Source of the DNA: Burkholderiales bacterium
GTDB taxonomy: Bacteria > Pseudomonadota > Gammaproteobacteria > Burkholderiales > SHXO01
Length of the DNA: 64,000 nucleotides
Direction: 5' to 3'
Assembly (NCBI GenBank): GCA_020854105.1
Contig: JADZGB010000031.1
Coordinates: forward strand, 62,001 to 126,000
The notes under the pieces were generated by a model. That model worked only from the letters and a program-made list of their open reading frames with translations. It was not told the origin of the DNA and searched no databases. The translations under genes were made by a program, and so were the position numbers. This document shows, one piece after another, positions 35,694 through 63,444 of the stretch. Numbering within the stretch: position 1 is the first letter of the stretch; the number at the start of each line of letters is the position of its first letter.

Positions 35694-35882
35694 TCAGGAT
35701 CCTGCCAGCCGCAGCACCGCCAGCAGCACGATGGTCAGGGCCACGCCCAGCGCGATGGTGCTGGCAGCGCTGTCGAAGGGGTGCTTCCACTGCCGCGCCT
35801 CGCTCCCGGTCCCAGCCGGCTTGCGCCGGGGCGTGGGCTGGAGAACCTGCGTACGCGTCTGGCCTGATGCGCGCGGCTTCAT
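35694..35882 (-). CDS. Single-TM small protein coupled to pqqE
   Basis: A 62-residue protein: a basic N-terminal half and one C-terminal TM helix (STIALGVALTIVLLAVLRL). The ATG overlaps the pqqE stop as ATGA, which supports real translation. It would be inserted tail-first in the inner membrane. No family is recognised. It may anchor or accompany the neighbouring PuuD-like membrane protein. Confidence 0.6.
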   Translation of the reverse strand: MKPRASGQTRTQVLQPTPRRKPAGTGSEARQWKHPFDSAASTIALGVALTIVLLAVLRLAGS

Positions 35883-37015
35883 AGTTCGGTGGAGACCGCG
35901 TCACGCAGCCGCCGGATCAGCGGGCGCTTGGGCCGCTCCGGGGAATGCGAGGCATCGATCGCCTGGGTGATGACGTGATGATGCGGGGAGCGTGAACAGG
36001 CCGGATCGGCGTTCGCCGCATCTCCGGTGAGCAGGAAGGCCTGGCAGCGGCAGCCGCCGAAGTCCTTCTCCTTCTCGCTGCAACTGCGGCAGGGCTCCTT
36101 CATCCATTCGTCGCCGCGGAACTTGCGGAACAGGGGCGAGTCGTTCCAGATCCAGGCCAGGGACTTCTCGCGCACGGTGGGGAATTCCAACCCCTCGATC
36201 ACGCGCACCTCCTGGCAGGGCAGCGCCGCGCCGTCCGGCGCGATGGTCAGGTGGATCGTTCCCCACCCGTTCATGCACGCCTTGGGCCGTCCCTCGTAGT
36301 AGTCGGGGATGACGAAGTAGATCGTCATGCTCTGCCCCAGGCGCTCGCGCGCCGCCTGCACCACGGCTTCCGCGTGCTCGATCTGGGCACGCGAGGGCAG
36401 CAGCTCGTCGCGATTGAGCAGGGCCCAGTTGTAGTACTGGATGTTGGCGAACTCGAGGTAATCCACGCCGATGGACTCGGCCATGGCGAGAATGCGCTCG
36501 ACCTGATCGATGTTCTGCCGGACCACCGGCACGTTGAGCACCATCGGAAAACCGTGGGCCTTGATGCGCGCGGCCACGTCGAGCTTGATGTCGTGCGCGC
36601 GCGCGCCGGTCAGTTCATTGGTGAGTCGCCGGTCGGCCGACTGCAGCGAGAGCTGGATCTGCTTGAGTCCGGCTTCCTTCAGCGCGCGCAGCCGCGTCTC
36701 GGTGAGGCCGATGCCGGAGGTGATGAGATTGGTGTAGAAGCCGAGCGAATCCGCGTATCCGACCAGTTCCTCGAGATCATCGCGCAGCATCGGCTCGCCG
36801 CCGGAGAAGCCCAGTTGCAGGGAGCCCAGCGTACGCGCCTGGCGCAGCACGTCCTTCCACTCCTCGGTGGACAGCTCCTGACTGGTGTAGCGCTGGAAAT
36901 CCAGCGGGTTATTGCACCAGACGCATTTGAGCGGACAGCGGTAGGTCAGCTCCAGTACCAGCCACAGCGGCCGGCCCTGCCCGTCAAGCGCGATCCCGGA
37001 TCCATCCTTTGGCAT
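35879..37015 (-). CDS. pqqE: PqqA peptide cyclase PqqE (radical SAM)
   Basis: A 378-residue radical SAM/SPASM enzyme that cross-links Glu and Tyr side chains of PqqA in the first step of PQQ synthesis. The SAM cluster motif is Cys27-x3-Cys31-x2-Cys34 (RCPLKCVWCNNPLDF), GFSGGEPMLR follows, and the SPASM cysteines are in CMNGWG, PCQEV and CRSCSEKEKDFGGCRC, then DPAC. All hallmark residues of genuine PqqE are present. It overlaps pqqD by 32 nt. pqqB and pqqC are not in the window. Confidence 0.93.
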   Translation of the reverse strand: MPKDGSGIALDGQGRPLWLVLELTYRCPLKCVWCNNPLDFQRYTSQELSTEEWKDVLRQARTLGSLQLGFSGGEPMLRDDLEELVGYADSLGFYTNLITSGIGLTETRLRALKEAGLKQIQLSLQSADRRLTNELTGARAHDIKLDVAARIKAHGFPMVLNVPVVRQNIDQVERILAMAESIGVDYLEFANIQYYNWALLNRDELLPSRAQIEHAEAVVQAARERLGQSMTIYFVIPDYYEGRPKACMNGWGTIHLTIAPDGAALPCQEVRVIEGLEFPTVREKSLAWIWNDSPLFRKFRGDEWMKEPCRSCSEKEKDFGGCRCQAFLLTGDAANADPACSRSPHHHVITQAIDASHSPERPKRPLIRRLRDAVSTEL

Positions 37016-37277
37016 ACGACACCTCGAGAAATTTCTGCACTCCCTGCTCCACCCGCTCGGGCGTTTCCGAGAACAGGGCCCTGAGTTCTTCGGTCAACTC
37101 TCCCACCGTGCGCTGTCCGTCGCAGCGACGCAGGATCTCCGCGGCGGTGGGGTTGAGCTTCACCACGCCCTCCGGATAGAGGAGCACGTAGGCCGCCTGC
37201 GTGTCCTCCCAGCGCAGCAGGAACATCGGCTTGAGCTCCGGACGCCGGGCCGCCTCGATCGATGCGCTCTGATTCAT
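36984..37277 (-). CDS. pqqD: PQQ biosynthesis peptide chaperone PqqD
   Basis: A 97-residue protein that binds PqqA and presents it to PqqE. It shows the PqqD pattern: RPELKPMFLLRWEDTQAAYV, then LLYPEGVVKLNPTAAEILRR and a helical end. The ATG at 37277 has AGGAGA about 8 nt upstream; a start six codons earlier lacks a site. It overlaps pqqE and follows pqqA by 54 nt, without the usual pqqB and pqqC between them. Confidence 0.9.
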   Translation of the reverse strand: MNQSASIEAARRPELKPMFLLRWEDTQAAYVLLYPEGVVKLNPTAAEILRRCDGQRTVGELTEELRALFSETPERVEQGVQKFLEVSYAKGWIRDRA

Positions 37278-37331
37278 GTTCTTCTCCTGTGGCATCCGGG
37301 GGCGCCCGAAGGCACCCCCGGAGCCGTTCGC

Positions 37332-38357: not shown

Positions 38358-40220
38358 ATGCGACTGCTGCTGATCAATCCGCGCTTTCCCGAGAGTTTCT
38401 GGAGCTTCCGCTTCGCCATGGACCGGATCGTCCCCGGCAAGCGCACCCTCAATCCGCCCCTGGGACTAGCCACCCTCGCGGCCCTGTGTCCGCCGCACTG
38501 GGAAGTGACGATCGTGGACGAGAACGTCGAATCGATACCGCTCGATCCGCAGGCGGACCTGATCGGCGTGTGTGGAATGGGGGTGCAGTTTCCGCGCCAG
38601 CGCGAGCTGCTCGGCTACTACCGCGCGCGCGGTTACCGTGTCGTCGCGGGAGGCAGCTATGCCTCCCTCTGTCCAGAGAAGTACGCGGCGCTGGCCGACA
38701 CAACGGTGGCCGGCGAGGCCGAGTACATCTGGCCGGCATTCTGCCGCGATGTCGAGAACGGCACCGCGCAGCCACTGTACCGCGAAACCGGCACGGTGGC
38801 GCTGACCGACTCGCCCACGCCGCGATTCGACCTGCTCAAGCTGCATCTGTACAACACCGCCAGCATGCAGTTCTCGCGCGGCTGCCCTTACATGTGCGAC
38901 TTCTGCGACATCATCGTGATGTTCGGACGACGCCCGCGCACCAAGGATGTCGAACAGATCGGACGCGAACTGGACGCCCTGCGTGCCCAGGGCGCGCGCC
39001 AGGTCTTCTTCGTGGACGACAACCTGATCGGCAACCGCGCCGTGGCCAAGACCCTGCTGCGCTTCCTCGCGCAGTACCAGGCACGGCACCGCTACCGGTT
39101 CAGCTTCGGCACCGAGGCCTCGCTCAACCTGGCACAGGACGAGGAACTGTTGACGCTGATGCGAGGGGCCAATTTCGGCTGGGTGTTCATCGGCATCGAG
39201 ACGCCGGACGAGGCGGCGCTGAAGCTCACCCGCAAGACCCAGAACATGAGCACGGACATCCTCGGCGCCCTGCGCAGGATCTACGCGCACGGCATCGACG
39301 TGCTGGCCGGTTTCATCGTGGGCTTCGACACCGACACGCTGGAGACCTTCGAGCGCCAGCGCAGCTTCATCCTCGAATCGGGCATCCAGGCCGCGATGGT
39401 CGGATTGCTGACGGCGCTCCCTCGCACCCCGCTGTACGAGCGGCTGCAGCGCGAGGGGCGGCTGATCGAGCGCGCCGACGACACCGACAACACACGACCC
39501 GGTACCAACATCGTGCCGCGCAACATGGACTACGATGCCATGGTCGAGGCGTACCAGGATCTGTACCGGTCCCTGCTCACCGACGCCGGCATCGCCCGCC
39601 GCATCCGCAGCAAGATGCGCTGGATGCACGCGCCGGTCTATCGCGGCGAGTACAGCCCGGCGCAGCGCCTGTCGATCCTGGCGCGCCTGCTGGTGCGAGG
39701 CATCCTGCCGGGCGGCCCGTCGCGCTGGCTGGCGTTCCTGTCCACGTTGCCGCGCTCGCCGCGCCAGATCCCATCGGTCGTGTCGGACTGGATCACCGGC
39801 CTGTCGATGCGCGAGTACATCCGCCGCCGCTTCGACGCGACCGGCAGCGTACCCGCGGCGGCGCGACGCAGGATGCGCGGCCTGGTGCGTGCGCTTGCCC
39901 GCTATCGCGACAGCGGCGTGGGGCTGCACGTGGGGGCCGATGCGCGCCACGTCGAGATCTCCCTGAGCGAGCGCGTGGACCAGCGCTTCTTCGTCCGCCT
40001 CGCACCGCGGCTCGAGCGCGTGCTGCGCGACGGCCGTGCCACTCTGGCGCTGCGCGTCGACACGCTGCGTGCCCAGCACGTGCCGGCCCTGCAGGCGATG
40101 CTGGCGCGCATCGCCCGCCACGGCGACCGCGTGTCCATCTCGCTGCCGGAGTCGTGGCGCGGCCGGCTGCAGGTGGACTCCTCGGTATTCCGTCTGGTGC
40201 TCTCGCCTTCGCCGCGCTGA
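38358..40220 (+). CDS. B12-binding-domain radical SAM protein
   Basis: A 620-residue protein. Residues 1-140 form a cobalamin-binding-like domain (MRLLLINPRFPESFWSF, GVCGMGVQF). The radical SAM domain follows with Cys176-x3-Cys180-x2-Cys183 (RGCPYMCDFCD). GIETPDEAALKLTRKTQNM and a DUF4070-type C-terminal domain come next, then ~120 residues rich in Arg with no match I know. Such enzymes often methylate or rearrange lipids or cofactors. The gene is monocistronic on the plus strand and carries the nir-associated motif at its promoter, so it may serve anaerobic metabolism (inference). Confidence 0.82.
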   Translation: MRLLLINPRFPESFWSFRFAMDRIVPGKRTLNPPLGLATLAALCPPHWEVTIVDENVESIPLDPQADLIGVCGMGVQFPRQRELLGYYRARGYRVVAGGSYASLCPEKYAALADTTVAGEAEYIWPAFCRDVENGTAQPLYRETGTVALTDSPTPRFDLLKLHLYNTASMQFSRGCPYMCDFCDIIVMFGRRPRTKDVEQIGRELDALRAQGARQVFFVDDNLIGNRAVAKTLLRFLAQYQARHRYRFSFGTEASLNLAQDEELLTLMRGANFGWVFIGIETPDEAALKLTRKTQNMSTDILGALRRIYAHGIDVLAGFIVGFDTDTLETFERQRSFILESGIQAAMVGLLTALPRTPLYERLQREGRLIERADDTDNTRPGTNIVPRNMDYDAMVEAYQDLYRSLLTDAGIARRIRSKMRWMHAPVYRGEYSPAQRLSILARLLVRGILPGGPSRWLAFLSTLPRSPRQIPSVVSDWITGLSMREYIRRRFDATGSVPAAARRRMRGLVRALARYRDSGVGLHVGADARHVEISLSERVDQRFFVRLAPRLERVLRDGRATLALRVDTLRAQHVPALQAMLARIARHGDRVSISLPESWRGRLQVDSSVFRLVLSPSPR

Positions 40221-40242: not shown

Positions 40243-42096
40243 CTACGCCGCCGGCGGCGCCGTCACCACGAAGGCATCGGAGAAGCATGCATCCTCGGGC
40301 AGCCCCTGCGCAATGAATGCCGGACGGGCGGTCCCCACCATCTGCACCGAACCACAGGTGTAGATCTCGAAGCCCGACAGATCGGGATGATCCTGCAGGA
40401 TCGCCTCGTGCACGAGGCCGGTGCGCCCGGTCCATGCATCGCCGGGAAGCGGTTCCGACAGTACCGGGATGAAATGGAAGCCGGGATGCTCGCGCGTCCA
40501 GGCCTCGACCTGCGCGCGCTCGTAGAGATCCTCGGCGTGACGCACGCCCCAGTACAGCATCATGGGACGCTGGATGCCGCTGCGGAACGCCTCCTCTAGC
40601 ATGCTCTTGACCGGTGCGAAGCCGGTCGAACCGGCGACGAAGATCAGCGGCGTGCTGCCATCGCGCAACTGGAACGCACCCAGCGGTCCCTCGATCAACA
40701 GGCGGTCGCCCGGGCGCATCGACTCGAACACATGGGTGGTGAAGCGCCCGCCCGGCACCAGGCGCACGTGCATCTCGATCTGATCGCGGCCGGACGGCGC
40801 CGTGGCGAACGAGAACGCGCGCCGCGCGCCGTCCTCGAGCACGACGTTGAAGTACTGCCCCGCACGGTAGTCGATGCGGGCACCCTCGGGCAGCCGCAGA
40901 TGGATGATCATGACGTCGGGCGCGGCGCGATGCATGGAACCGACCACCGTCTCCCAGGTCTGTATCGCACCGCGCGCCGCCCCGGCGCCCAGCTCGTACT
41001 CGACCTCCACGTCGGTGACCGGCGTGCACACGCACAGCAGGGCGCGACCCAGCCGGCGTTCCTCGTCCGACAGCACGCTCTTCTGATACGCGGCGTGCCG
41101 CACCTCGCCCTGCAGGATCGTGCCCTTGCACACGCCGCAACCGCCGTTGCGGCAATCGAAGAGCATGGGAATCCCGGCACGCAGCCCAGCCTCCAGGATG
41201 GTCTCGTCGGTGCGCACCGGCACCTCCCGGTTGCCCGGATGCACCGTCATGCGCACGCCCTTGTCCGCGCGTCGCGGCGGCAGCCACGGCAGCAGGACCA
41301 GCAGCGCGGTCGTGCCGGCGAGGAGCATCCAGACGCCCTCGCGCGACCACGCGTACATCAGCGGCAGGGTGGCGAGCAGGTACCAGTCCAGGCGCAGCGG
41401 CGGCGCCACCGCGGACAGGTCGGCCGGCGCATGGCTGGTCACGGGCAGCGCCACCGACAGTGCAATCATGGTCGCCAGCAGCGGCAGCGCGATGGCGCGC
41501 GGCGGATTGGTGGCGGCACGCGGCACGCGCTGGATGTGGATCCACAGGAACAGCAGCAGCGTGAGCGGCACTCCGACGTGGATGAAGGCGAGCAGCGAGA
41601 ACAGACGATCGTTGACGCTGTCCTGGTAGATGAAGTTGCGCACCAGCACCCCACCGAACAGCGGCACCCAGTCGAGGAACTCGGCGGTTGCGACGACCAC
41701 GAACTGCGCCAGTTCGTCCCAGGGCAGCATGTAGCCGTTGATGCCGGAGATGTAGGTGAGCCAGAGCAGGCTCACGCCGCTGATCCAGGAGAACCAGCGG
41801 AAGCCGCGATGGCGGTCGAAGCAGAAGTGACGCGACATGTGCAGCAGCATGGTGACCACCATGCCGTCCGAGGCGTAGCGGTGCAGGCCGCGCATCACCA
41901 TGCCCAGTCCCAGGTGGCCGTGGGTGATCCGCTCCACCGACTGGTACGCGCCGCTCACGCCGGTATCGAAGAAGACGTAGAGGTAGATGCCGGTCGCCGC
42001 GACGATCCAGAACAGGAAAAAGGCGATCTCGCCAAGGCGGTAGAAGGGATTGAGGCGATCGCCGAAGGCGGCGTTGAACCACCTCTCGACGCGCAT
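40243..42096 (-). CDS. Cytochrome b / [2Fe-2S] ferredoxin / FAD-NAD reductase fusion
   Basis: A 617-residue, three-part protein. Residues 1-270 form a PetB-like cytochrome b with four heme histidines spaced 14 apart in pairs (His72/His86 and His173/His187). Residues ~282-365 form a plant-type ferredoxin (CRNGGCGVCKG with Cys315, 320, 323, then Cys355). Residues ~375-617 form a ferredoxin-NADP reductase-like module (RRAFSFATAP, GSTGFAPVKSMLEE, YTCGSVQMV). It could move electrons between NAD(P)H and quinone. The start is uncertain: ATG 42096 matches the domain edge; GTG 42135 and ATG 42222 are in frame but lie upstream of or across a terminator hairpin. Confidence 0.85.
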   Translation of the reverse strand: MRVERWFNAAFGDRLNPFYRLGEIAFFLFWIVAATGIYLYVFFDTGVSGAYQSVERITHGHLGLGMVMRGLHRYASDGMVVTMLLHMSRHFCFDRHRGFRWFSWISGVSLLWLTYISGINGYMLPWDELAQFVVVATAEFLDWVPLFGGVLVRNFIYQDSVNDRLFSLLAFIHVGVPLTLLLFLWIHIQRVPRAATNPPRAIALPLLATMIALSVALPVTSHAPADLSAVAPPLRLDWYLLATLPLMYAWSREGVWMLLAGTTALLVLLPWLPPRRADKGVRMTVHPGNREVPVRTDETILEAGLRAGIPMLFDCRNGGCGVCKGTILQGEVRHAAYQKSVLSDEERRLGRALLCVCTPVTDVEVEYELGAGAARGAIQTWETVVGSMHRAAPDVMIIHLRLPEGARIDYRAGQYFNVVLEDGARRAFSFATAPSGRDQIEMHVRLVPGGRFTTHVFESMRPGDRLLIEGPLGAFQLRDGSTPLIFVAGSTGFAPVKSMLEEAFRSGIQRPMMLYWGVRHAEDLYERAQVEAWTREHPGFHFIPVLSEPLPGDAWTGRTGLVHEAILQDHPDLSGFEIYTCGSVQMVGTARPAFIAQGLPEDACFSDAFVVTAPPAA

Positions 42097-42146
42097 GAAG
42101 CAGGCCTGTCCGGCCGCCTGTAGTCGCTGCAGCACCGCTTCCGTCC

Positions 42147-42184
42147 AAAGAAAAAAAAACGGGCCGGGCAGGATGCCCGGCCCG
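42147..42184 (-). terminator. Intrinsic terminator or attenuator, minus strand
   Basis: A perfect 11-bp stem (CGGGCCGGGCA at 42159-42169, TGCCCGGCCCG at 42173-42183) with a 3-nt loop is followed on the minus strand by eight consecutive U residues. It lies 51 nt before the cytochrome b fusion start, so it either ends the upstream transcript or attenuates the fusion gene. Confidence 0.85.
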
Positions 42185-42351
42185 TGGAGAACTCCGCAAC
42201 CAGCCGCCAGGAACGGAGGCATCGCCCTGTCCGCAGGTCGATGGGGAATTCAGGCGACCGTCATCGGCGACGGAGAGTCACACACAGGAGCCGCGCAATC
42301 AGCCAACGCCCCCTGTGTCTGCGAATCTACGCACCATCGACCCGCTTCGCC

Positions 42352-42366
42352 TTCATCCAGATTAAG
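42352..42366 (-). promoter_or_regulatory. TTAAC-type motif upstream of the cytochrome b fusion
   Basis: TTCATCCAGATTAAG on the plus strand (minus: CTTAATCTGGATGAA) is a variant of the recurring motif with 10-bp half-site spacing. A promoter here would transcribe about 200 nt of leader before reaching the terminator hairpin at 42147-42184. Confidence 0.4.
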
Positions 42367-42456: not shown

Positions 42457-42987
42457 TCACTGCACGGCACGCCAGCCAGGATGCTCGAAATACCGAGGAT
42501 ACTGGTTCAGCGCCTGGATGACGCGTACCGCGCCCTTGCGCGCGTCCGCCAGGTCCACCTGCTTCATCTGTTCGGCGCCACCGATAATCTCGACCAGCAG
42601 CACGTGCAGATTCGCGTCTGCCGCGGGCGAGAGCTTGCAGTTCTCCACCATGTAGGCGATCTGCGCGTCGATCTTCCCGGCCAGCGCCACGTAGCCCGGG
42701 CCGTCCTGCTTGCGCGCATGGATTGCCGGATGCGCCGCCTGCATCGCATCCCGGATCGTGGTCATCGCCTGACGCAGCGGCGCATCGGTCGTCCACTTCT
42801 TGCCGTGATCGAGTTGCAGCTCTCGCGGAGCGCCCTCGTGACCGTGTGCGTGTTCCTCCGCCGGCGCAGCTTCGTGGCCGTGTGCGTGCTCATCCGGCTG
42901 GGCGCCGTGAACAGGCATCGCAATCAGCATCGCGAGGCTGACGAGGGCCGCCGGCACGGTGCCGGCGTGGCGAATCAGACGATACAT
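42457..42987 (-). CDS. Histidine-rich periplasmic protein in the nir cluster
   Basis: A 176-residue exported protein (signal peptide ending near MPVHGA-QPD) with two copies of EEHAHGHE/DEHAHGHE, suitable for binding copper, zinc or nickel. A helical domain follows (LDHGKKWTTDAPLRQAMTTI and an AYMVENCKLSPAADANLHVL segment). Similar proteins occur beside denitrification genes, but I cannot name a function with confidence. It lies downstream of a P460-type cytochrome and upstream of the terminator, perhaps the last gene of the nir transcript. Confidence 0.65.
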   Translation of the reverse strand: MYRLIRHAGTVPAALVSLAMLIAMPVHGAQPDEHAHGHEAAPAEEHAHGHEGAPRELQLDHGKKWTTDAPLRQAMTTIRDAMQAAHPAIHARKQDGPGYVALAGKIDAQIAYMVENCKLSPAADANLHVLLVEIIGGAEQMKQVDLADARKGAVRVIQALNQYPRYFEHPGWRAVQ

Positions 42988-47480: not shown

Positions 47481-47939
47481 TCAGGCACGCAGGCGCAGGT
47501 CGAGAAAGTATTCCTTCTGCTTCGGGAAGGCGTACACGGGCAGGCCGGTTGCGGCCTCGATTCGCGCGAGCACTGCATCGGCCTGACTGCCCGCCTCCAC
47601 GGCGATCACGAACCACAGATTGAATGCATGTTCGCGCAGGTAGTTGTGGGCGACCTCCGGCAACGCGTTGACGATGCCGATGACGCGATCCAATGCCGGG
47701 TCGGGCACGCGCATGGCGACAAGGACGTAGCGTCCGCCGGCGCGCTCGATCTGGTACATCGGTCCCAGGCGCGACAGCACGCCGGCGTCGAGCAGCCGCT
47801 GCAGGCGCGCGATCAGCACATCCTCCTCGAGGCCGAGCTGGGCGGCCGCTTCGCGGTAGGGGCGCTCCACCAGCGGCACTGCGTCCTGCAGCTGGTTGAT
47901 GATCGCACGATCGGTGTCGTCAAGCGTGGGGCCGAGCAT
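47481..47939 (-). CDS. nirG: Siroheme decarboxylase subunit NirG
   Basis: A 152-residue AsnC-like protein (DRAIINQLQDAVPLVERPYR, LGPMYQIERAGGRYVLVAMR, AHNYLREHAFNLWFVIA). It forms part of the NirDLGH siroheme decarboxylase. The ATG at 47939 lies inside the end of nirDL, an overlap of 20 nt. Assignment between NirG and NirD types rests on gene order and the FPKQKEYFLDLRLRA end. Confidence 0.85.
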   Translation of the reverse strand: MLGPTLDDTDRAIINQLQDAVPLVERPYREAAAQLGLEEDVLIARLQRLLDAGVLSRLGPMYQIERAGGRYVLVAMRVPDPALDRVIGIVNALPEVAHNYLREHAFNLWFVIAVEAGSQADAVLARIEAATGLPVYAFPKQKEYFLDLRLRA

Positions 47940-48960
47940 GCTGCATCTCCGGGAAGTAGCGTGCACCCTGTTGCTTGAAGCGCGTACGCCCGAACAGCAC
48001 GCGCGCGGGAAAGCCCTCCAGAGCGCAGGCGCGCGCGTTGCCGGCCAGGGTGCTGCGCACCGCGCCGGGTTCACGCCCGTGCACCATGCAGTACAGGTTG
48101 AACGGCCAGTCCGGCAGGCTGCGCTCGCGCCGGTAGCACAGGGTCACGCCCGGGCACGCCGCCAGTGCACGTCCGAACGCCCCGACCTGCCCGTCGGGCA
48201 CGTCCCACACCGCCATGGCGTTGGCGCGATAGCCCATCTCGCGGTGGCGCACGATCACGCCGAGGCGGCGGATGACCCCGGCCTGCACCCAGTCGCGCAA
48301 CGTGTCCACTACCTGCTCCCCGGTCATCCCCGCTTGCGCCGCGAGTTCACGGTAGGGATGGCGGGTCAGCGCCAGGCCGGACTCGAGCGCTCCCAGCAGC
48401 GCACGCTCTGCCAGCGTAAGGGGCAAGGGGCAGGGCGCGCGGCGCCAGGCCGGCTGCTCCGATGCCTGCGCGGGCCCGCGCATGTCGAAGCCGAGGTCGA
48501 TGCGGTACTCCTCGAGCAGCGGAAAATTCAGCACCGGACCGGACGCGGCCGCACGCTCGATCTCGTCCATCGCCTGGCCGAGGGTGGCCGGATCCGCGGC
48601 ATTGAGCACGAACCACAGGTTGGGATCGCCATCGCGCGCATAGTTGTGGCTGACTTCGCGCCGTGCGCTGACGAGCGCGGCCACGCGCTCCAGGTCGTCC
48701 TCGCGCACCCGCAGTGCGGCCAGCGTGCTGACGCCCACGCTGTGGGGCGCGATCACCGCGCCGACGCGGGCGATCGTGCCGTCGGCCAGGCACCGCGCGA
48801 GCACCGCCAGCACGGCCTCCTCGGAGACTTCGAGCCGTTGCGCGACCGCGGCGTAGGGGGCGTCCACCAGCGGAAAGCCGCGCTGGTGCTCGTTGAGCAG
48901 ACGGAAGCGCAGCGCCGCCGGTGCCTGCGCGGGCGCGGCCGGATCGGCGCGCGCGCTCAC
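47920..48960 (-). CDS. nirD: Fused siroheme decarboxylase NirDL
   Basis: A 346-residue protein made of two AsnC-like units. The first (about 17-165) is NirD-like (EHQRGFPLVDAPYAAVAQRL, SHNYARDGDPNLWFVLN, FPLLEEYRIDLGFDM). The second (about 178-346) is NirL-like (GLALTRHPYRELAAQAGM, MGYRANAMAVWDV, LPDWPFNLYCMVHG, ending LFGRTRFKQQGARYF). Such fusions are known in several denitrifiers. It starts in ATGA overlap with nirF. Confidence 0.9.
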   Translation of the reverse strand: MSARADPAAPAQAPAALRFRLLNEHQRGFPLVDAPYAAVAQRLEVSEEAVLAVLARCLADGTIARVGAVIAPHSVGVSTLAALRVREDDLERVAALVSARREVSHNYARDGDPNLWFVLNAADPATLGQAMDEIERAAASGPVLNFPLLEEYRIDLGFDMRGPAQASEQPAWRRAPCPLPLTLAERALLGALESGLALTRHPYRELAAQAGMTGEQVVDTLRDWVQAGVIRRLGVIVRHREMGYRANAMAVWDVPDGQVGAFGRALAACPGVTLCYRRERSLPDWPFNLYCMVHGREPGAVRSTLAGNARACALEGFPARVLFGRTRFKQQGARYFPEMQHARPHA

Positions 48961-55449: not shown

Positions 55450-55668
55450 CTACCTGGCGATCAGGATCTCGAAGAACCCCTCGGGATCGAAGCCGTGGCG
55501 GTAGGACCAGCCCTCGCGTTCGAGCCACTGGAACAGCGGACGCGGCAGGCGATGGATGAGCACGCGCAGTGTCGCGCCCTGCGGCAGTGTCTCGAGTGCG
55601 GCGACCACGCGCTCGAACGGCTCGGGCGGCTCCAGCCAGCGCACGTCGATGTCGATGCGCTCGCTCAT
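55450..55668 (-). CDS. DUF2249 small protein
   Basis: A 72-residue protein with the DUF2249 pattern (IDVRWLEPPEPFERVVAALE, LRVLIHRLPRPLFQWLEREG, GFFEILIAR), a TusA-like small alpha/beta fold common near nitrogen-oxide genes. Its ATG at 55668 overlaps the upstream oxidase-like stop (ATGA). The function is unknown; sulfur-carrier or NO-related roles have been suggested for the fold, without evidence here. Confidence 0.78.
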   Translation of the reverse strand: MSERIDIDVRWLEPPEPFERVVAALETLPQGATLRVLIHRLPRPLFQWLEREGWSYRHGFDPEGFFEILIAR

Positions 55669-57086
55669 CGCACCCTCTGCCCTGCGCGGCGCATGCTGCC
55701 GGCGATCACCACCACGAACAGCACGCCTCCGACGATCGCGATCGCACCCCCCAGTCCCATCAGTCCCATTCCCGCCACCTGCTCCAGTCGGTCGAGCACC
55801 TGTTCGGATCCGGCGACCTTGCGCTGCACCCCGTATCCGCCGGACCACACCAGACCGGCGATGTGCATCAGCTGCCCGATCCCGTACACGTAAGGCTGCC
55901 ACAAGGCGAGCCGTGCATTGGGGGCGCCGTAGCCCAGGCGCGGCATCAGTTCGTAGGCCACTCCCATGAACGCAAGGGTGATGCCGACGATACAGCCGTG
56001 ATAGTGCGCCGGGATCTTGACGTTGGCCCCGCTGATGGCGAAGCCGATCAGCCCGCCAGCGCAGAACAGCACCAGCGACATCACCAGCGCCGCGCGCAGC
56101 GCACGCCGCTGCGGATCGAGCGGACCGGTGCCGCGCAGGCCCGCGATCAGTGCCAGCGCCAGCGGCGGGATGGCCATGCCGCCGCCAACGCGCATCATCC
56201 AGGTGAGCATGCGCCGGTGCTCGACCGACGTCACGTCCCATGCCAGATACACCAGCGGCGTGGCCAGCACCACCACCAGAGACAGGCCGAACAGTACCAG
56301 CACCACGCGCGGGCCGATGGGCAGGCGCGCGCCGATCGCATCGGCGAGCCACAGCCAGGCCACCAGCATCAGCACGGTCCAGGTGAACTGCAGCACGTGG
56401 CCACCACCCCAGAACAGCACCTCGTAGTAGGTACGCGGATCGACCGCCGCGGGCAGCGCCAGCCAGGACCACAGGAAGGCGAACAATGCCACTCCCGTGG
56501 CAAATGCCGCAGCCACCAGGCCCAGCCGAAGCGCGCCGGCACCGTCGATTCGCGCGTGGGTGCTGGCGCCGAGTACGGCACGCGCAATCACCAGCGCCAC
56601 GCCGGCGGCAAGCGCGATCAGGCCACCCAGGAACACCGGTCCGTCGAGGACCGGCACGTAGTTGGCCATGACAGGCCGGGCGCGCTCGACGAAGGGCGAT
56701 ACGCACAGCGCTGCCGTGCCGGCCGCGCACAGCGCCAGGCCGGCCCTTCCCAGCGTCGGCACGCGTGTGCCGCTGGCGAGACTCCAGAACACTCCGCCGA
56801 AGGCCACGAACCACACGAGCACCGAGAGATCGACGTGCACCACCAGCGCCACCCGGAAGAAATCACTGACCGGAAACAGGTGCTGCAGATACGGGGTGCG
56901 GGCCAGCACCAGCAGGATGGAGAAGACGCCCGACAGCGCGATTGCCGCCATGCCCAGCAGCATCCAGGCGCGCGCCAGCGAACGCGGCAGCCCGGCGGCA
57001 ACGGGCAGGCGATAGTGCTCAGGTGCGGCCCCGGTGCGCGCGGGTGCGCGCACATGCGCCGGAACGGCGAGGTGAGCGGGCTTCAT
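55665..57086 (-). CDS. Divergent heme-copper oxidase subunit I-like protein, candidate NO reductase
   Basis: A 473-residue, twelve-TM protein. Expected ligands are His84 (VVHVDLSV) and His361/His363 (PAHYHGCIVG) for hemes and His230 (FWGGGHVLQF) for the copper/iron site. The usual tyrosine after His230 is absent (Gln233, Phe234), and the His-His pair of TM7 reads Glu289-His290 (TSVEHRRM). These changes argue against oxygen reduction as in A-type oxidases and fit nitric oxide reductase-like members of the superfamily (inference). It overlaps DUF2249 and follows the Ig-like protein by 3 nt without a subunit II gene. Confidence 0.75.
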   Translation of the reverse strand: MKPAHLAVPAHVRAPARTGAAPEHYRLPVAAGLPRSLARAWMLLGMAAIALSGVFSILLVLARTPYLQHLFPVSDFFRVALVVHVDLSVLVWFVAFGGVFWSLASGTRVPTLGRAGLALCAAGTAALCVSPFVERARPVMANYVPVLDGPVFLGGLIALAAGVALVIARAVLGASTHARIDGAGALRLGLVAAAFATGVALFAFLWSWLALPAAVDPRTYYEVLFWGGGHVLQFTWTVLMLVAWLWLADAIGARLPIGPRVVLVLFGLSLVVVLATPLVYLAWDVTSVEHRRMLTWMMRVGGGMAIPPLALALIAGLRGTGPLDPQRRALRAALVMSLVLFCAGGLIGFAISGANVKIPAHYHGCIVGITLAFMGVAYELMPRLGYGAPNARLALWQPYVYGIGQLMHIAGLVWSGGYGVQRKVAGSEQVLDRLEQVAGMGLMGLGGAIAIVGGVLFVVVIAGSMRRAGQRVR

Positions 57087-57589
57087 CGGTACAGGATGCC
57101 TCCCCTGGCAGGATCGAAATCGACGACCAGGATGCGTCCCGGATCGAGGCGCACGGTTTCATCGCGCACGTGATTGAAGCCCTGCACCCGCTCGCTGTCG
57201 TCGATGCGTACCGTCAGGCGATGCTCGCCGGCGGGCACGGGAAAGCGCGCGTAGTAGGTGGACGGTCCATCCCTGGCGATTCCGGCCGGCGCCACGGTCT
57301 CGCGGGCGAGCATGGCACCGTCCAGGCTCAGCTCCACCGTCAGGGGGGAGCGCTCGCGCGGACAGTCCATCTCCTGGCGCATGTTCGGCGCCATGCGCTG
57401 CAGTTCCTCTGCCGAGCGCCGCCGGCATTCGCTGCGCAGCTGGCCGGGCTGCGAGAAACTCAGCTTGAGCAGCGCCTGATCCTCCGCCAGATGCCGGTAG
57501 ACCGGCGCAGTCGAGAAGATGCCGATCACGGCAGCGAATGCCACATACAGGACGGCCTGCATCAGCAGGGCCACGGGCCGGCTAGCCAT
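57083..57589 (-). CDS. Single-TM periplasmic protein of the oxidase-like operon
   Basis: A 168-residue protein with an N-terminal membrane anchor (LLMQAVLYVAFAAVIGIFST) and a beta-rich periplasmic part (STYYARFPVPAGEHRLTVRI) that could be an Ig-like domain. A CRRRSAEELQ/MDCPRERS pair of Cys lies mid-protein. It has no family name I know. It overlaps the cytochrome b fusion stop by 8 nt and the heme-copper gene start by 4 nt, so it may be an accessory subunit of one of them. Confidence 0.65.
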   Translation of the reverse strand: MASRPVALLMQAVLYVAFAAVIGIFSTAPVYRHLAEDQALLKLSFSQPGQLRSECRRRSAEELQRMAPNMRQEMDCPRERSPLTVELSLDGAMLARETVAPAGIARDGPSTYYARFPVPAGEHRLTVRIDDSERVQGFNHVRDETVRLDPGRILVVDFDPARGGILYR

Positions 57590-59159
57590 GAACCACCTCC
57601 TCTGCCGCGGACGCGTGGCTGCGCCGCGTGCGCAGAGCCTCGACCGCGCGCCGCAGATCCGCAGCCTCGTGGGGTGCGCAGGCGACGACGCGCATCTGCT
57701 CACGCGGCACGCGTGCGCGCAGGTACGGCTCACGCAAGCCATCCAGGCGCTGCTGCGTCCAGCGCCCGCCCAGACGATAGGCGCACCCGTCCTCGGGGCA
57801 GGTGGCCACCACCACGCCGTGCGCGCCGTTGCGCAGCGCGAACTCCACGAACGATGGCGGCATCTGCCCGGCACACATGAACGTCAGCGCCGCAGTGTCG
57901 GGGCTGCGCAGGGCCTCGACCTCGACGCTGTTGCTGCAGCCCAATACCACGATGCGCGCCGGACCGGACAGGCGTGCCAGTTCGCTCTGCAATGTCTCGC
58001 GCAGCGCGCCGATGCGCTGCTGCGGCATGTCGATTCCGGTCACCAGTTCTCTCACGCTGCGAAACGGGGTCGACGACGGGCATGCACCGGCGCAGATCCC
58101 GCAGGCCGTGCACAGCGCCGGATCCACCACTGCCAGTTCGGCACCGATGCGCGCGTCCGGATGCGGATGCATGGTGATCGCCCCGTGCGGGCAGTCCTCG
58201 AAGCAGCGCCGGCAGCCGTTGCAGTTGGCCGGATCCACCCTCGCCACAGCGGGGCGGTGTGCGCGGCCCAGGAGTGGACAGGCAGCCAGCGCGAGCGTCA
58301 GCACCGTCGCGACCGCCCACAGTGCCCCTGGCGAGGTCTCGTACATGAGCGCGTGCGGGGCAAGGTAGAACCAGTCGAGCGCCAGCGCGGGCTCCGCCCG
58401 CATGGCATCCGCGGGACCGGCGCTGGTGACGGGCGCGAACAGCGACAGGACCAGCAGGGCCGCCAGGGTGCCGGCCCCGAGCGCACGTGCGGGCACCGTC
58501 TCCGGCCGGCTCAGCCGCTTGATGTGCACCCACATCCCGAGCAGCAGCAGCAGGGGCAGGCCGATGTGGAGGAACACGAACAGCGAGAACAGCCGATCGT
58601 CCACGCTCTCCGGCGTGAGGAAGTTGCGCGCCAGCGACACCCCGAACACCCCGGCTGCATCCAGCCATTCCATCGTGGCCACCGCACTGAACAGCGCCAG
58701 CTGATCCCATACCAGCCAATAGCCGACCACCCCGCTGCCCAGGGCCAGCCACACCAGCGGCACGCCGCTGATCCAGGTGAACCAGCGCGCACCCGCATAG
58801 CGGCCGCGCACGAACTCGCACCCCACGTGCAGCAGAATCACGGCGGCGAACGCGGCCGAGGCGTAGCGGTGCAGGCTGCGCATCAGCCCGCCGGCCCAGG
58901 GCTGTTCCGTCGACAGCGCCTGCACCGATTGCCACGCACCCGCGACGCTGGTGTCGAACACGACGTACAGGTAGACGCCGCTCACCACGACGATCCAGAA
59001 CAGGTGGAAACCGAGTGCGCCGAGATGGCGCCAGGGATTGGCATGCGCGCCGAAACAGCGGTCGAACGCGGCTTCGACGCGTGCGAGCACGCCGGCCGCG
59101 CCCGGGAACGGGTACGCAAGCACACCGGGGGACCGAGCCCGTCTGGCCGTCGCGAACAT
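57582..59159 (-). CDS. Cytochrome b / 2[4Fe-4S] ferredoxin / FlpD-MvhD-like fusion
   Basis: A 525-residue, three-part protein. The N-terminal ~250 residues are a PetB-like cytochrome b with paired heme histidines (RSLHRYASAAF / ILLHVGCEF and FLHIGLPLL / WVHIKRL). A double ferredoxin follows (CNGCRRCFEDCPHG, CTACGICAGACPSS). The C-terminal ~140 residues match the FlpD/MvhD iron-sulfur family (VLGCSNSVEVEALR, TFMCAGQMPPSFVEFALRNG, VVVATCPEDGCAYRLGGRW), which couples flavin or hydrogenase electrons in Hdr complexes. I infer a membrane quinone link to a soluble low-potential donor. Its cytochrome b part is homologous to that at 40243-42096. Confidence 0.83.
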   Translation of the reverse strand: MFATARRARSPGVLAYPFPGAAGVLARVEAAFDRCFGAHANPWRHLGALGFHLFWIVVVSGVYLYVVFDTSVAGAWQSVQALSTEQPWAGGLMRSLHRYASAAFAAVILLHVGCEFVRGRYAGARWFTWISGVPLVWLALGSGVVGYWLVWDQLALFSAVATMEWLDAAGVFGVSLARNFLTPESVDDRLFSLFVFLHIGLPLLLLLGMWVHIKRLSRPETVPARALGAGTLAALLVLSLFAPVTSAGPADAMRAEPALALDWFYLAPHALMYETSPGALWAVATVLTLALAACPLLGRAHRPAVARVDPANCNGCRRCFEDCPHGAITMHPHPDARIGAELAVVDPALCTACGICAGACPSSTPFRSVRELVTGIDMPQQRIGALRETLQSELARLSGPARIVVLGCSNSVEVEALRSPDTAALTFMCAGQMPPSFVEFALRNGAHGVVVATCPEDGCAYRLGGRWTQQRLDGLREPYLRARVPREQMRVVACAPHEAADLRRAVEALRTRRSHASAAEEVVHG

Positions 59160-59193
59160 GCCCTGATGCTACGTGCGCCCTGGGCGCGGTGAA

Positions 59194-59208
59194 TTAACCT
59201 GCGTTCAG
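59194..59208 (-). promoter_or_regulatory. TTAAC-N5-TTCAG motif upstream of the cytochrome b/FlpD fusion
   Basis: TTAACCTGCGTTCAG on the plus strand, 35 nt before the ATG at 59159 and overlapping the SCO stop codon. Its position near the start suggests the fusion gene has its own promoter inside the minus-strand cluster. Confidence 0.5.
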
Positions 59209-60044
59209 CGAAGCGCGCCCGCGCGCCTGCGCTGGGCCACGAACAGGGCCAGCGCCACGATGCCGGTGACGCCGCCGGCCAGCTCCAGGATGATGGCGTA
59301 CTTGAAGCGGTATTCGCCGCTGACCGGATCGTAATAGGTGCACAGGATGCGGATGCGCTCGAGCAGCCCGATGGCGTCGACCGGTTCGGCGCGCTCGCCG
59401 CGCAGCGCCAGTTCGAGCGCATCGGTGAGTGCGGACAGGGCGAACCCGTCGCCGTAGACCTGCGCCACCACCACGCCGCTGCCATCGATCACGCTCACCT
59501 GCGTGAGGTGGTCGAACCCGCCCGTCACCGGCACGTAGCGGAAGCCCAGTTCGTCGGCGAGCGCACGCAGCGTGTCCGGGTCCGGGCTGAGGAAGTGCCA
59601 GTTGGGCAAGTGGATGCCCTGCTGACGCCCGAACGCGCCCATCGCCTCGGGACCGTCGAACGGCAGGTTGAAGCCGATGGTCACCACGTTGAACGCGTCG
59701 GTGCCCAGCGCGCCCATGGCGGAATTGACGGCGCGCGCGAGCGTGCGCGTGGTGGTCGGACACACCTGGAAGCAGCCGGTGTAGACGAAGGACACCAGCA
59801 GCGGTTTGCCGCGCAGATCGGCCAGGCGCAGGCTGCCGCCCCGTCCATCACGCAGGCGGTGATCGCCCAATGCGTTGCCGATGGCCCCCTGGCTGGCGCG
59901 CAGGGCCTCGGCCTGGTCCAGGCGCTGCACCGCAGCCTGCACCGGCTCCGCATCCGGCGTGTCGGCACCGTGCGCGAGCGCCGCGAGGCCCCCACACAGC
60001 AGCGCGATGCACGCGCGCAGGAGCCCCCGGCGCTTGCCGCTCAC
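59205..60044 (-). CDS. SCO1/SenC-family copper chaperone
   Basis: A 279-residue membrane-anchored thioredoxin-fold protein that delivers copper to CuA. Copper ligands are in TGCFQVCPTTT (CxxxC) and the later His in GGFDHLTQVSV. A signal/anchor at the N-terminus and a C-terminal TM (LAGGVTGIVALALFVAQ) are predicted. The GTG at 60044 is taken as the start, 1 nt after the ctaB stop. It presumably loads the CuA site of the adjacent subunit II. Confidence 0.87.
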   Translation of the reverse strand: MSGKRRGLLRACIALLCGGLAALAHGADTPDAEPVQAAVQRLDQAEALRASQGAIGNALGDHRLRDGRGGSLRLADLRGKPLLVSFVYTGCFQVCPTTTRTLARAVNSAMGALGTDAFNVVTIGFNLPFDGPEAMGAFGRQQGIHLPNWHFLSPDPDTLRALADELGFRYVPVTGGFDHLTQVSVIDGSGVVVAQVYGDGFALSALTDALELALRGERAEPVDAIGLLERIRILCTYYDPVSGEYRFKYAIILELAGGVTGIVALALFVAQRRRAGALR

Positions 60045-60045
60045 C

Positions 60046-60960
60046 TCACCACCACGTGCCGTCGATGATGGCACCCAGCAGCAGCAGGCTGAGCTGGGTG
60101 AGGGAGGCATGGAATGCCGCCATCGCCCGCTGCGGCCCCGGCTCGCGCAGCAGTGCCCAGCAGCGGCGCAGCAGCAGGATGCCGCCCGCCACCGCGGCGG
60201 CCAGGTAGATCGCGCCCAGGCCGAAGAACACCGGCGCCACGGAGAGTGCGACCAGCGCCACTGCGTGGGCGAAGATCGCCTGCGACGCGCGCGCGCTGCC
60301 CACCACCACCGGCAGCATCGGCACGCGGGCGGCTTCGTAGTCCTTGCGGAACGCGATCGCGAGGCTCCAGAAGTGCGGCGGTGTCCACAGGAACAGGATC
60401 ACCGCCAGGATGGCGGGGACCGCACCGATGTGCGGATCCACCGCGGCGGCGCCGGCAAGTACCGCAGAACTGCCGGCCAGCCCGCCGATCACGATGTTCA
60501 TCCACGTCCGGCGCTTGAGCCAGACCGTGTACACCACCGCATAGATGAACGCGCCCAGGAAGGTGTAGAGCGCCGACCAGCCATTGAGCGCCCACCAGGC
60601 GGCGACGGTGGACGCCGCCACCAGGCCGAGGATCACGCCCAGCCAGGCGCGCGAGTGCGGCAGTTCGCCGGTGACGAAGGCACGTCGCTGCGTGCGCTTC
60701 ATGCGCGCGTCGACGTCGCGCTCGACGTACTGGTTGAAGGCACCGGCGCTGGCGGAGGACAGGAACACCGCCAGCCCGAGCACGACCACCTGCCACGCGC
60801 TGAGCGCCGGACCGCTCGCCACGGCCCAGCCCGCCAGGGCGGTGAATGCGATCACCGCCCCGATGCGCAGCTTGAACAGGCCAAGCACGACACGCGCGCG
60901 ATGCGCCCATCCCGCTGCGCGGACCTCCCCGACGGCTGTGATGCTGCTCATCGCACTCAC
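60046..60960 (-). CDS. ctaB: Protoheme IX farnesyltransferase (heme O synthase)
   Basis: A 304-residue, nine-TM UbiA-type prenyltransferase. The Asp-rich motif is NQYVERDVDARMKRTQRR and the second loop has YTVWLKRRTWMNIVIGG; LWTPPHFWSLAIAFRKDYE is conserved in heme O synthases. It makes heme O from protoheme and farnesyl diphosphate. With ctaA at the window end it indicates heme A or O is needed for the adjacent oxidase-like complex. ATG 60951 is an alternative start. Confidence 0.92.
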   Translation of the reverse strand: MSAMSSITAVGEVRAAGWAHRARVVLGLFKLRIGAVIAFTALAGWAVASGPALSAWQVVVLGLAVFLSSASAGAFNQYVERDVDARMKRTQRRAFVTGELPHSRAWLGVILGLVAASTVAAWWALNGWSALYTFLGAFIYAVVYTVWLKRRTWMNIVIGGLAGSSAVLAGAAAVDPHIGAVPAILAVILFLWTPPHFWSLAIAFRKDYEAARVPMLPVVVGSARASQAIFAHAVALVALSVAPVFFGLGAIYLAAAVAGGILLLRRCWALLREPGPQRAMAAFHASLTQLSLLLLGAIIDGTWW

Positions 60961-60977
60961 CTCGATCCGTTACGGTC

Positions 60978-62681
60978 TCAGTTGATGCCCCACACCGACC
61001 CGAGGTACTTCCAGTTGATGAAGTAGTACAGGACGAACGCCCCGAGGAACACCAGCGCCAGGGTGAAGGTGCCGCGCGCTTCCAGCAGCCCCGCTCCGCC
61101 GCCGTGGCCCTCGATCGCCTCGGCCACGGGCAGACGCAGCGGCGTGGGCTTGGGCTGACGCTGGCCCTCGTCCAGGCGCTTGCCGAACAGGATCGACCAC
61201 ACCGTCACGAGGATGTACATGCCGCCGCCGATGAAGGCGATCACCGCGAACACGCCCATCAGGGTCATCATCAGGTATGCCGCGCCCGGGAACTCGTACG
61301 GCAGGGGCATGCCCGAGAAGCCGATGTCCCAGTGCCGCCGCGGCACGCCGAGGGTACCCGCGCCCATCAGCGTGAGCGCGAGACCGTACATGCCGATGCT
61401 GAACACGTAGGGCTGCCACTGCGCAATCTTGTAGAACGACACGTCGCGGCTGAACAGGCTGGGGATCAGGAAGTAGGTCAGCCCCATGAACGCCAGCGTG
61501 GTGCCGATCACGACCGTTGCGTGGAAGTGCCCGGGCACGTAGATGGTGTTGTGGATGAGCATGTTGAGCTGCTCGGTACCCATCATTACGCCGGAGATGC
61601 CGCCCAGGAAGCCGAAGCCGATGATCGACAGGAAGATCGACGAGAACACCGGATTGCTCCACGGCGCCTTGCGCAGCCACTCGTACAGGCCGCGCGTGTA
61701 GCCCTTCTTGCGCTGCGCCACTTCCATCGCGCCGGGCACGGTCAGTCCGTGCAGCATGCTCGCCAGCACCGCGAAGTACATGAAGTAGCTGGTGTTGAGA
61801 ATCTTCCACTCGGACGACAGCCCGGGGTCGGACAGCAGATGGTGCGCGCTGGCCAGCTGCAGGAACAGGATGTAGAGCAGGAAGGCCGTGCGGCTCACCT
61901 TCTCGGACATGGGCTTGGCCCCGAACACGATGGCGCCCACCGCGTACCACACCGAGATGTGAGCGGCGACGTTGACCTGCTGCGAGGAGTGGCCCAGGCC
62001 CCACCAGATCACCCGGTACATCAGCGGATCGATGTGCTGGATGTAGCCGATCGACCAGAGGAAGGTCGGGATCAGGATGATGGCGCCGGAGGCGATGGTG
62101 AAGATGGCGATGATGGCGGCCGTCAGCGCACCGAAGGTCACCAGCGGCACCGAGCCCTCGTAGGTCTTCTCGGCCTTGGCGACGACCAGCGTCCCGAGGA
62201 AGATGAAACAGGCGATCAGCCCGCCCACGGCGAACAGGATCAGGCCCAGGTAGAAGGCCGGATGGGCCTGCATCGGCGTGTAGGAGGTCATCATCACGCT
62301 CGACTGGCCCTGGAAGATCGCGACGTTGGTGGTGATCGCCCCGATCACCATCAGCGCGAAGGCGAGCCAGGCCCAGCGCGGCGTCGCCAGCCGTGATCGG
62401 AGCAGCGTCGAGGAGCAGAAGTACAGAATCGCGACCTCGAAGAACAGCAGCCAGAAGATCAGCATGTCGAGGCCGTGGGCGGTGAGCACCATGTAGAAGC
62501 GCTCGGCATCGAGAATGTGCAGACCCGGCACGCGGGTGAGCGAGACCAGCAGGGCGAGAATGCCGCCGAGCAGCAGGAACACCACGCCGGCAACGGCGTT
62601 GACCTTGATCAGGGTCTCCGCCTGCTTGTGGTACTGGAGGCCGGAGCGCGGGTCGATCCGGAACGAGTCAGTCATGGCCAT
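60978..62681 (-). CDS. Heme-copper oxidase subunit I-like protein lacking the active-site Tyr (eNOR-like candidate)
   Basis: A 567-residue, about 14-TM protein. Ligands are His69 (LTAHGLDM), His231 (WGLGHSSQQVN), His280-His281 (ASAHHLL), and His385/His387 (VPGHFHATV). The position normally held by the cross-linked Tyr (four after His231) is Gln235. Oxygen reductases need that Tyr, and Gln there is a feature reported for NO-reducing members of the superfamily called eNOR. The CuA subunit II is encoded 19 nt upstream. Oxygen reduction by another mechanism is not excluded. SCO and ctaB follow directly. Confidence 0.8.
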   Translation of the reverse strand: MAMTDSFRIDPRSGLQYHKQAETLIKVNAVAGVVFLLLGGILALLVSLTRVPGLHILDAERFYMVLTAHGLDMLIFWLLFFEVAILYFCSSTLLRSRLATPRWAWLAFALMVIGAITTNVAIFQGQSSVMMTSYTPMQAHPAFYLGLILFAVGGLIACFIFLGTLVVAKAEKTYEGSVPLVTFGALTAAIIAIFTIASGAIILIPTFLWSIGYIQHIDPLMYRVIWWGLGHSSQQVNVAAHISVWYAVGAIVFGAKPMSEKVSRTAFLLYILFLQLASAHHLLSDPGLSSEWKILNTSYFMYFAVLASMLHGLTVPGAMEVAQRKKGYTRGLYEWLRKAPWSNPVFSSIFLSIIGFGFLGGISGVMMGTEQLNMLIHNTIYVPGHFHATVVIGTTLAFMGLTYFLIPSLFSRDVSFYKIAQWQPYVFSIGMYGLALTLMGAGTLGVPRRHWDIGFSGMPLPYEFPGAAYLMMTLMGVFAVIAFIGGGMYILVTVWSILFGKRLDEGQRQPKPTPLRLPVAEAIEGHGGGAGLLEARGTFTLALVFLGAFVLYYFINWKYLGSVWGIN

Positions 62682-62700
62682 GGCCGATCCCCTGTTCTTC

Positions 62701-63240
62701 TTACTTGACGTACATGCGGCTCACCATCTGGTGATGGCCGATGCCGCAGTACTCGTTGCAAACGATCGCGAACGATCCGGTCTTGTTCGGCGTGATGGTC
62801 ACCACCATCTCGTAGTCCGGCACGACCTGCAGGTTGATGTTTTCGGGCTGGAGCGAGAAGCCGTGCTGGTAGTCCATTGCCGAGAGGTGCAGCCGGTAGG
62901 TCTTGTCCTTCTCCAGCTCGAGGATGGGCCACCACTGCCACAGACGGGCGATCAGGTAGACGTCGCTGCCCGCGGGCGGCTGCACCACCGGGATGTTCAG
63001 CTCGGTCTCGGTGCGCACGGTGTACTTGTCCACCATCTCCTGCGTCTTCTGCTGGAATTGCGCGGCGGAGATGCGGTAGGCCTCGTTGGACAGGTTCTGT
63101 TTCCCGAACACGTGCCAGTACGGCATCATGAAGAACAGCACCAGCGCCCAGAGGAAGGCGATTACGATCCACCATACCTCGAGCTTCTCGACCGGCTCCT
63201 TCCACCAGATGCGTTTCGCGGGCGGCAGTATCGAACTCAT
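62701..63240 (-). CDS. CuA-containing subunit II of the heme-copper complex
   Basis: A 179-residue protein with one N-terminal TM helix (EVWWIVIAFLWALVLFFMMP) and a periplasmic cupredoxin domain. The CuA site is complete: a His in MDYQHGFSLQP and CNEYCGIGHHQM near the C-terminus. It takes electrons from a cytochrome c and passes them to subunit I. GGAG precedes the ATG. It is the B-type short form with a single TM, and it lies between the small subunit and subunit I. Confidence 0.9.
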   Translation of the reverse strand: MSSILPPAKRIWWKEPVEKLEVWWIVIAFLWALVLFFMMPYWHVFGKQNLSNEAYRISAAQFQQKTQEMVDKYTVRTETELNIPVVQPPAGSDVYLIARLWQWWPILELEKDKTYRLHLSAMDYQHGFSLQPENINLQVVPDYEMVVTITPNKTGSFAIVCNEYCGIGHHQMVSRMYVK

Positions 63241-63255
63241 CGTCGGATCTCCAGG

Positions 63256-63444
63256 CTACAGCGGTGCGTTGGGGATGGTGACGATCTCCATCACGCCCCA
63301 TAGGATGTAGAACACCGTCGGGACGGTGATGCCCAGGAACAGCAGGAGAAACGGGTTGTCCAGCAGGTGCTGCATGGCCGGGATGCGCTCTTCTTCGTCG
63401 CCCCCGCCATCGCGCGGTGCCCGTTCGGGGTTGCCTTGTGCCAT
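63256..63444 (-). CDS. Small one-TM subunit, probably of the same complex
   Basis: A 62-residue protein with a polar N-terminal half and one TM helix (LLLFLGITVPTVFYILWGVM). It ends 15 nt before the CuA subunit gene. Small helices of this kind occur as extra subunits of heme-copper enzymes. No ribosome-binding site is obvious, so the exact start is uncertain. Confidence 0.65.
   Translation of the reverse strand: MAQGNPERAPRDGGGDEEERIPAMQHLLDNPFLLLFLGITVPTVFYILWGVMEIVTIPNAPL

Follow-up and report, generated by a model that had tools for sequence, protein, structure and literature searches.

What part does a membrane cytochrome b play when it carries, in the same polypeptide, a ferredoxin domain and an NAD(P)H reductase? 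The question is raised by a gene in a 64,000-nucleotide stretch of a Burkholderiales bacterium genome (contig JADZGB010000031.1, positions 62,001 to 126,000), here referred to as the window. The gene lies on the minus strand in an open reading frame (42222..40243) that encodes 659 amino acids from its longest ATG; the ATG at 42096, which starts the 617-amino acid form of the initial annotation, is nested inside this frame, and the plus strand of 40243-42096 is non-coding. A terminator-like hairpin of 12 pairs followed by a T-run (42185-42159, minus strand) separates ATG 42222 from the stretch in which homologues start, about 25 nucleotides before a GTG at 42135, and the residues after this GTG, VLQRLQAAGQACFMRVERWFN, match the N-termini of homologues. 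For these reasons GTG 42135 is the preferred start, and the fusion gene (40243..42135) probably encodes 630 amino acids. Residue numbers given below are those of the 617-amino acid form.

The fusion contains four Pfam domains in one chain, all above their cut-offs: Cytochrome_B (3e-21), Fer2 (9e-15), FAD_binding_6 (5e-14) and NAD_binding_1 (2e-21). On the minus strand these correspond to a b6-like cytochrome b module (41263..42096), a plant-type [2Fe-2S] ferredoxin domain (41020..41247), an FAD-binding domain (40669..40938) and an NAD(P)-binding domain (40327..40641). Homologues of the same architecture, full-length and free of stops, are present in many genomes, which rules out a frameshift or an accidental joining of two genes. 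The view that a single protein holds all modules was thereby borne out.

The membrane half is nearest to cytochrome b6 of b6f complexes (4e-29 in a profile search against cytochrome b6), with predicted helices A to F that include subunit-IV-like helices E and F. Two bis-His heme sites are formed by H72/H86 and H173/H187, with the histidines 14 residues apart on helices B and D. Across 28 full-length homologues, the window's own protein among them, these ligands are invariant (28/28), as are the [2Fe-2S] ligands C315/C320/C323/C355 and the FAD/NAD motifs R426..S429-F430, G489-x-T491-G492-F-A-P and C581-G-S. The tail carries the CX4CX2C...C cluster, the RxxSF FAD motif and the GxTGxAP NAD motif, which we take to be marks of BenC/NqrF-type reductases. 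Both sequence and fold assign the tail to the GcoB/BenC/NqrF-type NAD(P)H reductases: an AlphaFold2 model of the fusion (mean pLDDT 75) matched GcoB (Z 29.7, rmsd 7.3 over 325 residues) and the NqrF FAD domain (Z 28.9, rmsd 1.8 over 234 residues) in a structure search. Structure prediction thus confirmed the reductase half only, the membrane half being placed by sequence; the whole-model search matched just the reductase half, and the missing cytochrome b row is no evidence against a cytochrome b fold. The pTM of 0.49 gives nothing on how the two halves are arranged. Six predicted membrane helices would place the tail on the cytoplasmic side and, by analogy with bc1 topology, H86/H187 would hold the heme near the tail (N side) and H72/H173 the heme near the periplasm (P side). 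Domains, invariant ligands and helix count together support the cofactor path first suggested for this protein, from NAD(P)H through FAD and [2Fe-2S] to two b hemes.

In the window, the fusion gene is separated from the remaining genes of its cassette and adjoins heme d1 biosynthesis genes and a cytochrome P460 gene. The cytochrome P460 gene (43151-43639, minus strand) and a gene for a His-rich protein without a Pfam match (42457-42987, minus strand) lie directly upstream. The heme d1 set includes one 346-amino acid protein (47920-48960, minus strand) that joins siroheme decarboxylase alpha-like and beta-like halves. Convergent with the fusion is a gene for a B12-binding radical SAM protein with DUF4070 (38358-40220, plus strand), whose best NCBIfam matches are far under cut-off, and PqqE and PqqD genes (35879-37295, minus strand) are located near denitrification genes. 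Boxes of the FNR/NnrR type (TTGAT-N4-ATCAA-like, at most 2 mismatches) number 16 on both strands of the window where 6 are expected; the one at 42352-42365, upstream of the fusion, is too weak to use.

The remainder of the cassette is found at 55665-63375, 13-21 kb from the fusion, and all of its genes given below are on the minus strand. A search of the window's own genome revealed a second protein with the same membrane half (57582..59123, 5′ end approximate), here called the sister cytochrome b; in this half it shares 47% identity with the fusion across 270 positions. The tail of the sister consists of two [4Fe-4S] sites and an FlpD domain and resembles the end of HdrA2, and its four heme ligands and twelve tail cysteines are all invariant in 29 sequences. 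A cytochrome b6-FlpD protein with the same combination of cytochrome b6, Fe-S and FlpD (RME88945.1) appears in a table of PMC8756737, where it is entered solely as domains that accompany a cytochrome c homologue and lacks an NAD(P)H module. Next to the sister lies u166 (57083..57574), a protein without a Pfam match that is composed of a transmembrane anchor and an Ig-like beta-sandwich. Its AlphaFold2 model is confident (pLDDT 97) and it has two invariant cysteines; a fold search gave no clear relative (best E 1.6e-3). At one locus (L210) u166 is fused to the FlpD-type cytochrome b, which supports u166 as a physical partner.

The enzyme encoded alongside can be identified from its active-site residues. 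Subunit I, a B-family heme-copper protein (60978..62681), holds all of the low-spin, high-spin and CuB histidines (H69, H231-S-S-Q-Q235, H280/H281, H385/H387), and has Gln at the position of the active-site Tyr of oxygen reductases (GHSSQQ); its closest solved relatives are the Thermus ba3 oxidases. Subunit II (62701..63240) keeps the CuA ligands (H126, C161, E163, C165, H169, M172). Gln at this position is described as the mark of eNOR, as opposed to Asn in sNOR, Asp in gNOR and Glu in cNOR/qNOR (PMC8756737). Judged by these residues, the partner cassette encodes eNOR, a CuA-type, Gln-containing NO reductase. The label sNOR was considered for the cassette and dropped because the Tyr-position residue is Gln, not Asn (Table A4, PMC8756737). 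NO reductase activity with cytochrome c as donor has been reported for the ba3-a1 enzyme, since renamed eNOR (PMC8879329). The Gln substitution, the CuA subunit II and SCO are common to the cassette and to eNOR as described; here the fusion accompanies the enzyme, whereas PMC8756737 and PMC8879329, as far as consulted, count no NAD(P)H-linked cytochrome b among its components.

The other genes of the cassette encode a SCO/SenC-type copper chaperone (59205..60044), a UbiA-family protein (60046..60888) that from its context is probably heme O synthase (CtaB/CyoE), a small conserved membrane peptide, s52 (63256..63375), and COX1b (55665..56963). COX1b is a degenerate heme-copper-oxidase-like protein that keeps H43, H189, H320 and H322 and has lost two adjacent CuB histidines. 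It aligns to eNOR subunit I, and a search with its profile gave no solved relative by sequence. Despite the loss of these two histidines, COX1b is retained with eNOR at almost every locus.

Since CtaA-like, UbiA/CtaB-like and SCO genes are present in the cassette, the fusion might be viewed as an assembly reductase that supplies electrons to heme A synthase or to copper-site maturation, much as mitochondrial heme A synthase is served by ferredoxin and ferredoxin reductase. Two b hemes across the membrane would be superfluous for such a role, however, and the eNOR loci L212, L215 and L216 have the same assembly genes and no fusion, so that this explanation is very improbable.

A further explanation follows the domain path as first annotated: the fusion would be an ordinary NAD(P)H:quinone reductase that shares an operon with eNOR yet works separately from it, feeding the quinone pool at the N-side heme. 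The location of the fusion outside the eNOR operon, both in the window and in one other genome (G480), is in keeping with this. The distribution of the genes argues against it. The recurring cassette, seen in 34 stretches and one short contig, comprises the small peptide, CuA subunit II, subunit I, UbiA/CtaB, SCO, the fusion, u166, the FlpD-type cytochrome b and COX1b, often accompanied by COX15/CtaA-like genes. Among 399 genomes of the order, eNOR subunit I is found in 34 and the cytochrome b module in 35, and all 34 fall within the 35; the sole genome with the cytochrome b but without subunit I (G153) is fragmented. In 28 of these 35 genomes the fusion itself could be viewed among its neighbouring genes. 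As for the others, G153 and G312 seem to hold shortened or incomplete copies, G014, G265, G294 and G323 show just the FlpD type or part of it, and G385 has an odd form of 402 amino acids.

A second set of 80 named loci, nearly all from metagenome-assembled genomes (MAGs) of Burkholderiales or other betaproteobacteria plus a few isolates, with Curvibacter sp. PAE-UM and Simplicispira lacusdiani among the carriers of the cassette, gives a similar picture, although the named and unnamed sets overlap because some are the same contigs. The fusion is present by gene call in 76 of the 80. At named loci with more than 8 kb on both sides, eNOR subunit I is found in 47 of 47 and the FlpD-type sister in 45 of 47, and both are on the same strand at 61 of the 62 loci that hold both. 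With eNOR and the sister at 45/47 well-flanked loci, the fusion is most readily understood as a subunit within a larger system, and the self-contained, one-polypeptide NAD(P)H:quinone oxidoreductase of the initial annotation is not supported. Given this near-perfect co-occurrence with eNOR and the membrane part shared with the FlpD-type sister, a quinone reductase working apart from eNOR is quite unlikely.

The relationship between fusion and sister can be followed beyond the order. In a tree of 93 cytochrome b modules, all 29 fusion rows group with one truncated row in a single, fully supported clade (SH-aLRT) that is surrounded by the FlpD-type rows. Matches were counted in 34/369 genomes of the class and 34/398 of the phylum, where both counts include the window's genome and the phylum count also includes one other genome of its order. 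Most matching genomes outside the order have one cytochrome b, in a frame of FlpD length, and gene calls there show Fer4/FlpD tails in nearly all that are readable in full. The single fusion clade and the FlpD forms outside the order indicate that the FlpD form is probably ancestral and that the fusion arose once, through duplication and exchange of the tail. Beyond the order, eNOR loci mostly contain just the FlpD-type cytochrome b, which implies that the fusion is not essential to eNOR. A different swap is seen at one locus beside eNOR (L209, 7672-10212, minus strand), where a second cytochrome b carries a flavodoxin and a CysJ-like FAD/NADP tail (diflavin, NADPH-type); its cytochrome b module is identical to that of its FlpD-type neighbour (DNA 97.6% over 954 bases). 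Among 55 relatives of the genome concerned (G553), that genome alone has a diflavin fusion. If this case from a single MAG is not an assembly artefact, it would mean that an NAD(P)H-type module was recruited more than once, and an independent swap of this kind beside eNOR points to repeated selection for NAD(P)H input.

The explanation favoured here is that the fusion is the NAD(P)H-linked electron-transfer subunit of an eNOR system, probably paired with its FlpD sister, and a probability of roughly 0.55 is assigned to it. The domains, ligands, operon, co-occurrence and single origin are established by the sequences, while the complex, its donor and acceptor and the direction of flow are inferred. 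The fusion and the [4Fe-4S]/FlpD sister would probably form a heterodimer in place of the usual cytochrome b homodimer. NAD(P)H would reduce FAD in the cytoplasmic tail, and FAD would pass single electrons through [2Fe-2S] to the N-side heme (H86/H187) and on to the P-side heme (H72/H173). From there electrons could reach eNOR via COX1b or CuA, or a quinone bound by the cytochrome b; the terminal acceptor of the larger system may be NO. Flow in this forward direction needs no special energetics and is the best reading. The subunit role is supported by the shared loci and co-occurrence with eNOR, the Gln mark of the partner, the reductase type of the tail, the diflavin swap and the NirS-type genes, which are present in 26/28 fusion genomes and 7/30 hand-picked controls, uncorrected for relatedness. 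Points that count against it are the location of the fusion apart from the eNOR operon both here and in G480, its dispensability to eNOR beyond the order, and the cytochrome c reported as the electron donor of eNOR (PMC8879329).

Flow in reverse has to be weighed as well. Here, quinol would be oxidized at a Qo-like site and its electrons split, one entering the high-potential branch with the NO reductase and the other passing via the b hemes, [2Fe-2S] and FAD to NAD(P)+, so that NO reduction would drive NAD(P)H formation; low-potential electrons might also pass through the sister subunit to ferredoxin. In favour of such bifurcation are the b6-like cytochrome b with its subunit-IV-like helices and an invariant DW (237-238) near the PEWY position, where the module aligns to the part of complete cytochromes b that holds the Qo motif; several profile matches span positions ~7-268 against ~26-310 of cytochrome b. 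The placement relative to PEWY is approximate. The P and E positions of PEWY are not kept, which counts against this reading. An account of the Qo motif and how it varies phylogenetically is given in PMC9162462. Anammox complexes of b6-like, SUIV-like and NAD(P) oxidoreductase subunits have been proposed to work alike, with nitrite-to-NO as the driver (PMC12954380). On the opposing side, no Rieske match was found among the conserved cassette proteins scanned. RuBisCO, a mark of the need for reverse electron flow, is without clear enrichment in fusion genomes (15/28 versus 10/30 hand-picked controls, p 0.18, uncorrected for relatedness, counting matches at E < 1e-100 and one partial match in G169, and leaving out weaker over-cut-off matches such as that of the window's genome). 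Autotrophy was accordingly rejected as a driver. The energetic gap that bifurcation would have to bridge is large, and this also tells against it. Reverse flow is on balance unlikely. A broader proposal sees the two sisters as partners in a heterodimeric cytochrome b core that lacks a Rieske protein and offers two exchangeable ports of low potential (NAD(P)H, and ferredoxin-like via FlpD). Bifurcation or confurcation in this core would couple quinol and NO chemistry, and NO reduction by eNOR could directly drive or consume NAD(P)H. This proposal is equally tentative and held to be unlikely.

Among known systems, the Rieske/cytochrome b complexes of Kuenenia (PMC12954380) likewise join subunit-IV-like helices and a cytoplasmic module for NAD(P) to a b6-like cytochrome b, and are tied to nitrogen-oxide reduction. 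In contrast to these complexes, no Rieske protein or multiheme cytochrome c was found in the cassette, and the NAD(P) module is an Fer2-FNR tail in the same chain, whereas in Kuenenia it is a separate subunit with [4Fe-4S]/[3Fe-4S] clusters. The [2Fe-2S]-FAD-NAD architecture of the tail is common to BenC, GcoB, NqrF and the stand-alone reductases of Burkholderiales, all of which differ from the fusion in being soluble or bound to other partners, without a cytochrome b. Most genomes of the order also contain free-standing relatives of the tail, of which the best reach 42-50% identity; a plasmid-borne one is annotated as CDP-6-deoxy-delta-3,4-glucoseen reductase. By titles and the beginnings of abstracts, no paper was recognized as describing the fusion, and publication elsewhere is possible.

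Sequence and gene neighbourhood together point to the fusion as a subunit that gives a respiratory NO reductase system an exchangeable electron port and is built of known parts. The finding is of interest because both the direction of electron flow and the partner are testable, and it suggests an eNOR system able to exchange electrons directly with the NAD(P)H pool of the cell. The route by which eNOR yields the greenhouse gas N2O has received little study. Should the conserved eNOR operon carry cytochromes b whose electron ports can be swapped, NO reduction could be tied directly to NAD(P)H or ferredoxin, and the usual chain of quinone, bc1 and cytochrome c could be bypassed or reversed. Such a system would provide a Rieske-free case for testing cytochrome b-based bifurcation, and it would change how the energy yield and N2O output of these denitrifiers are modelled.
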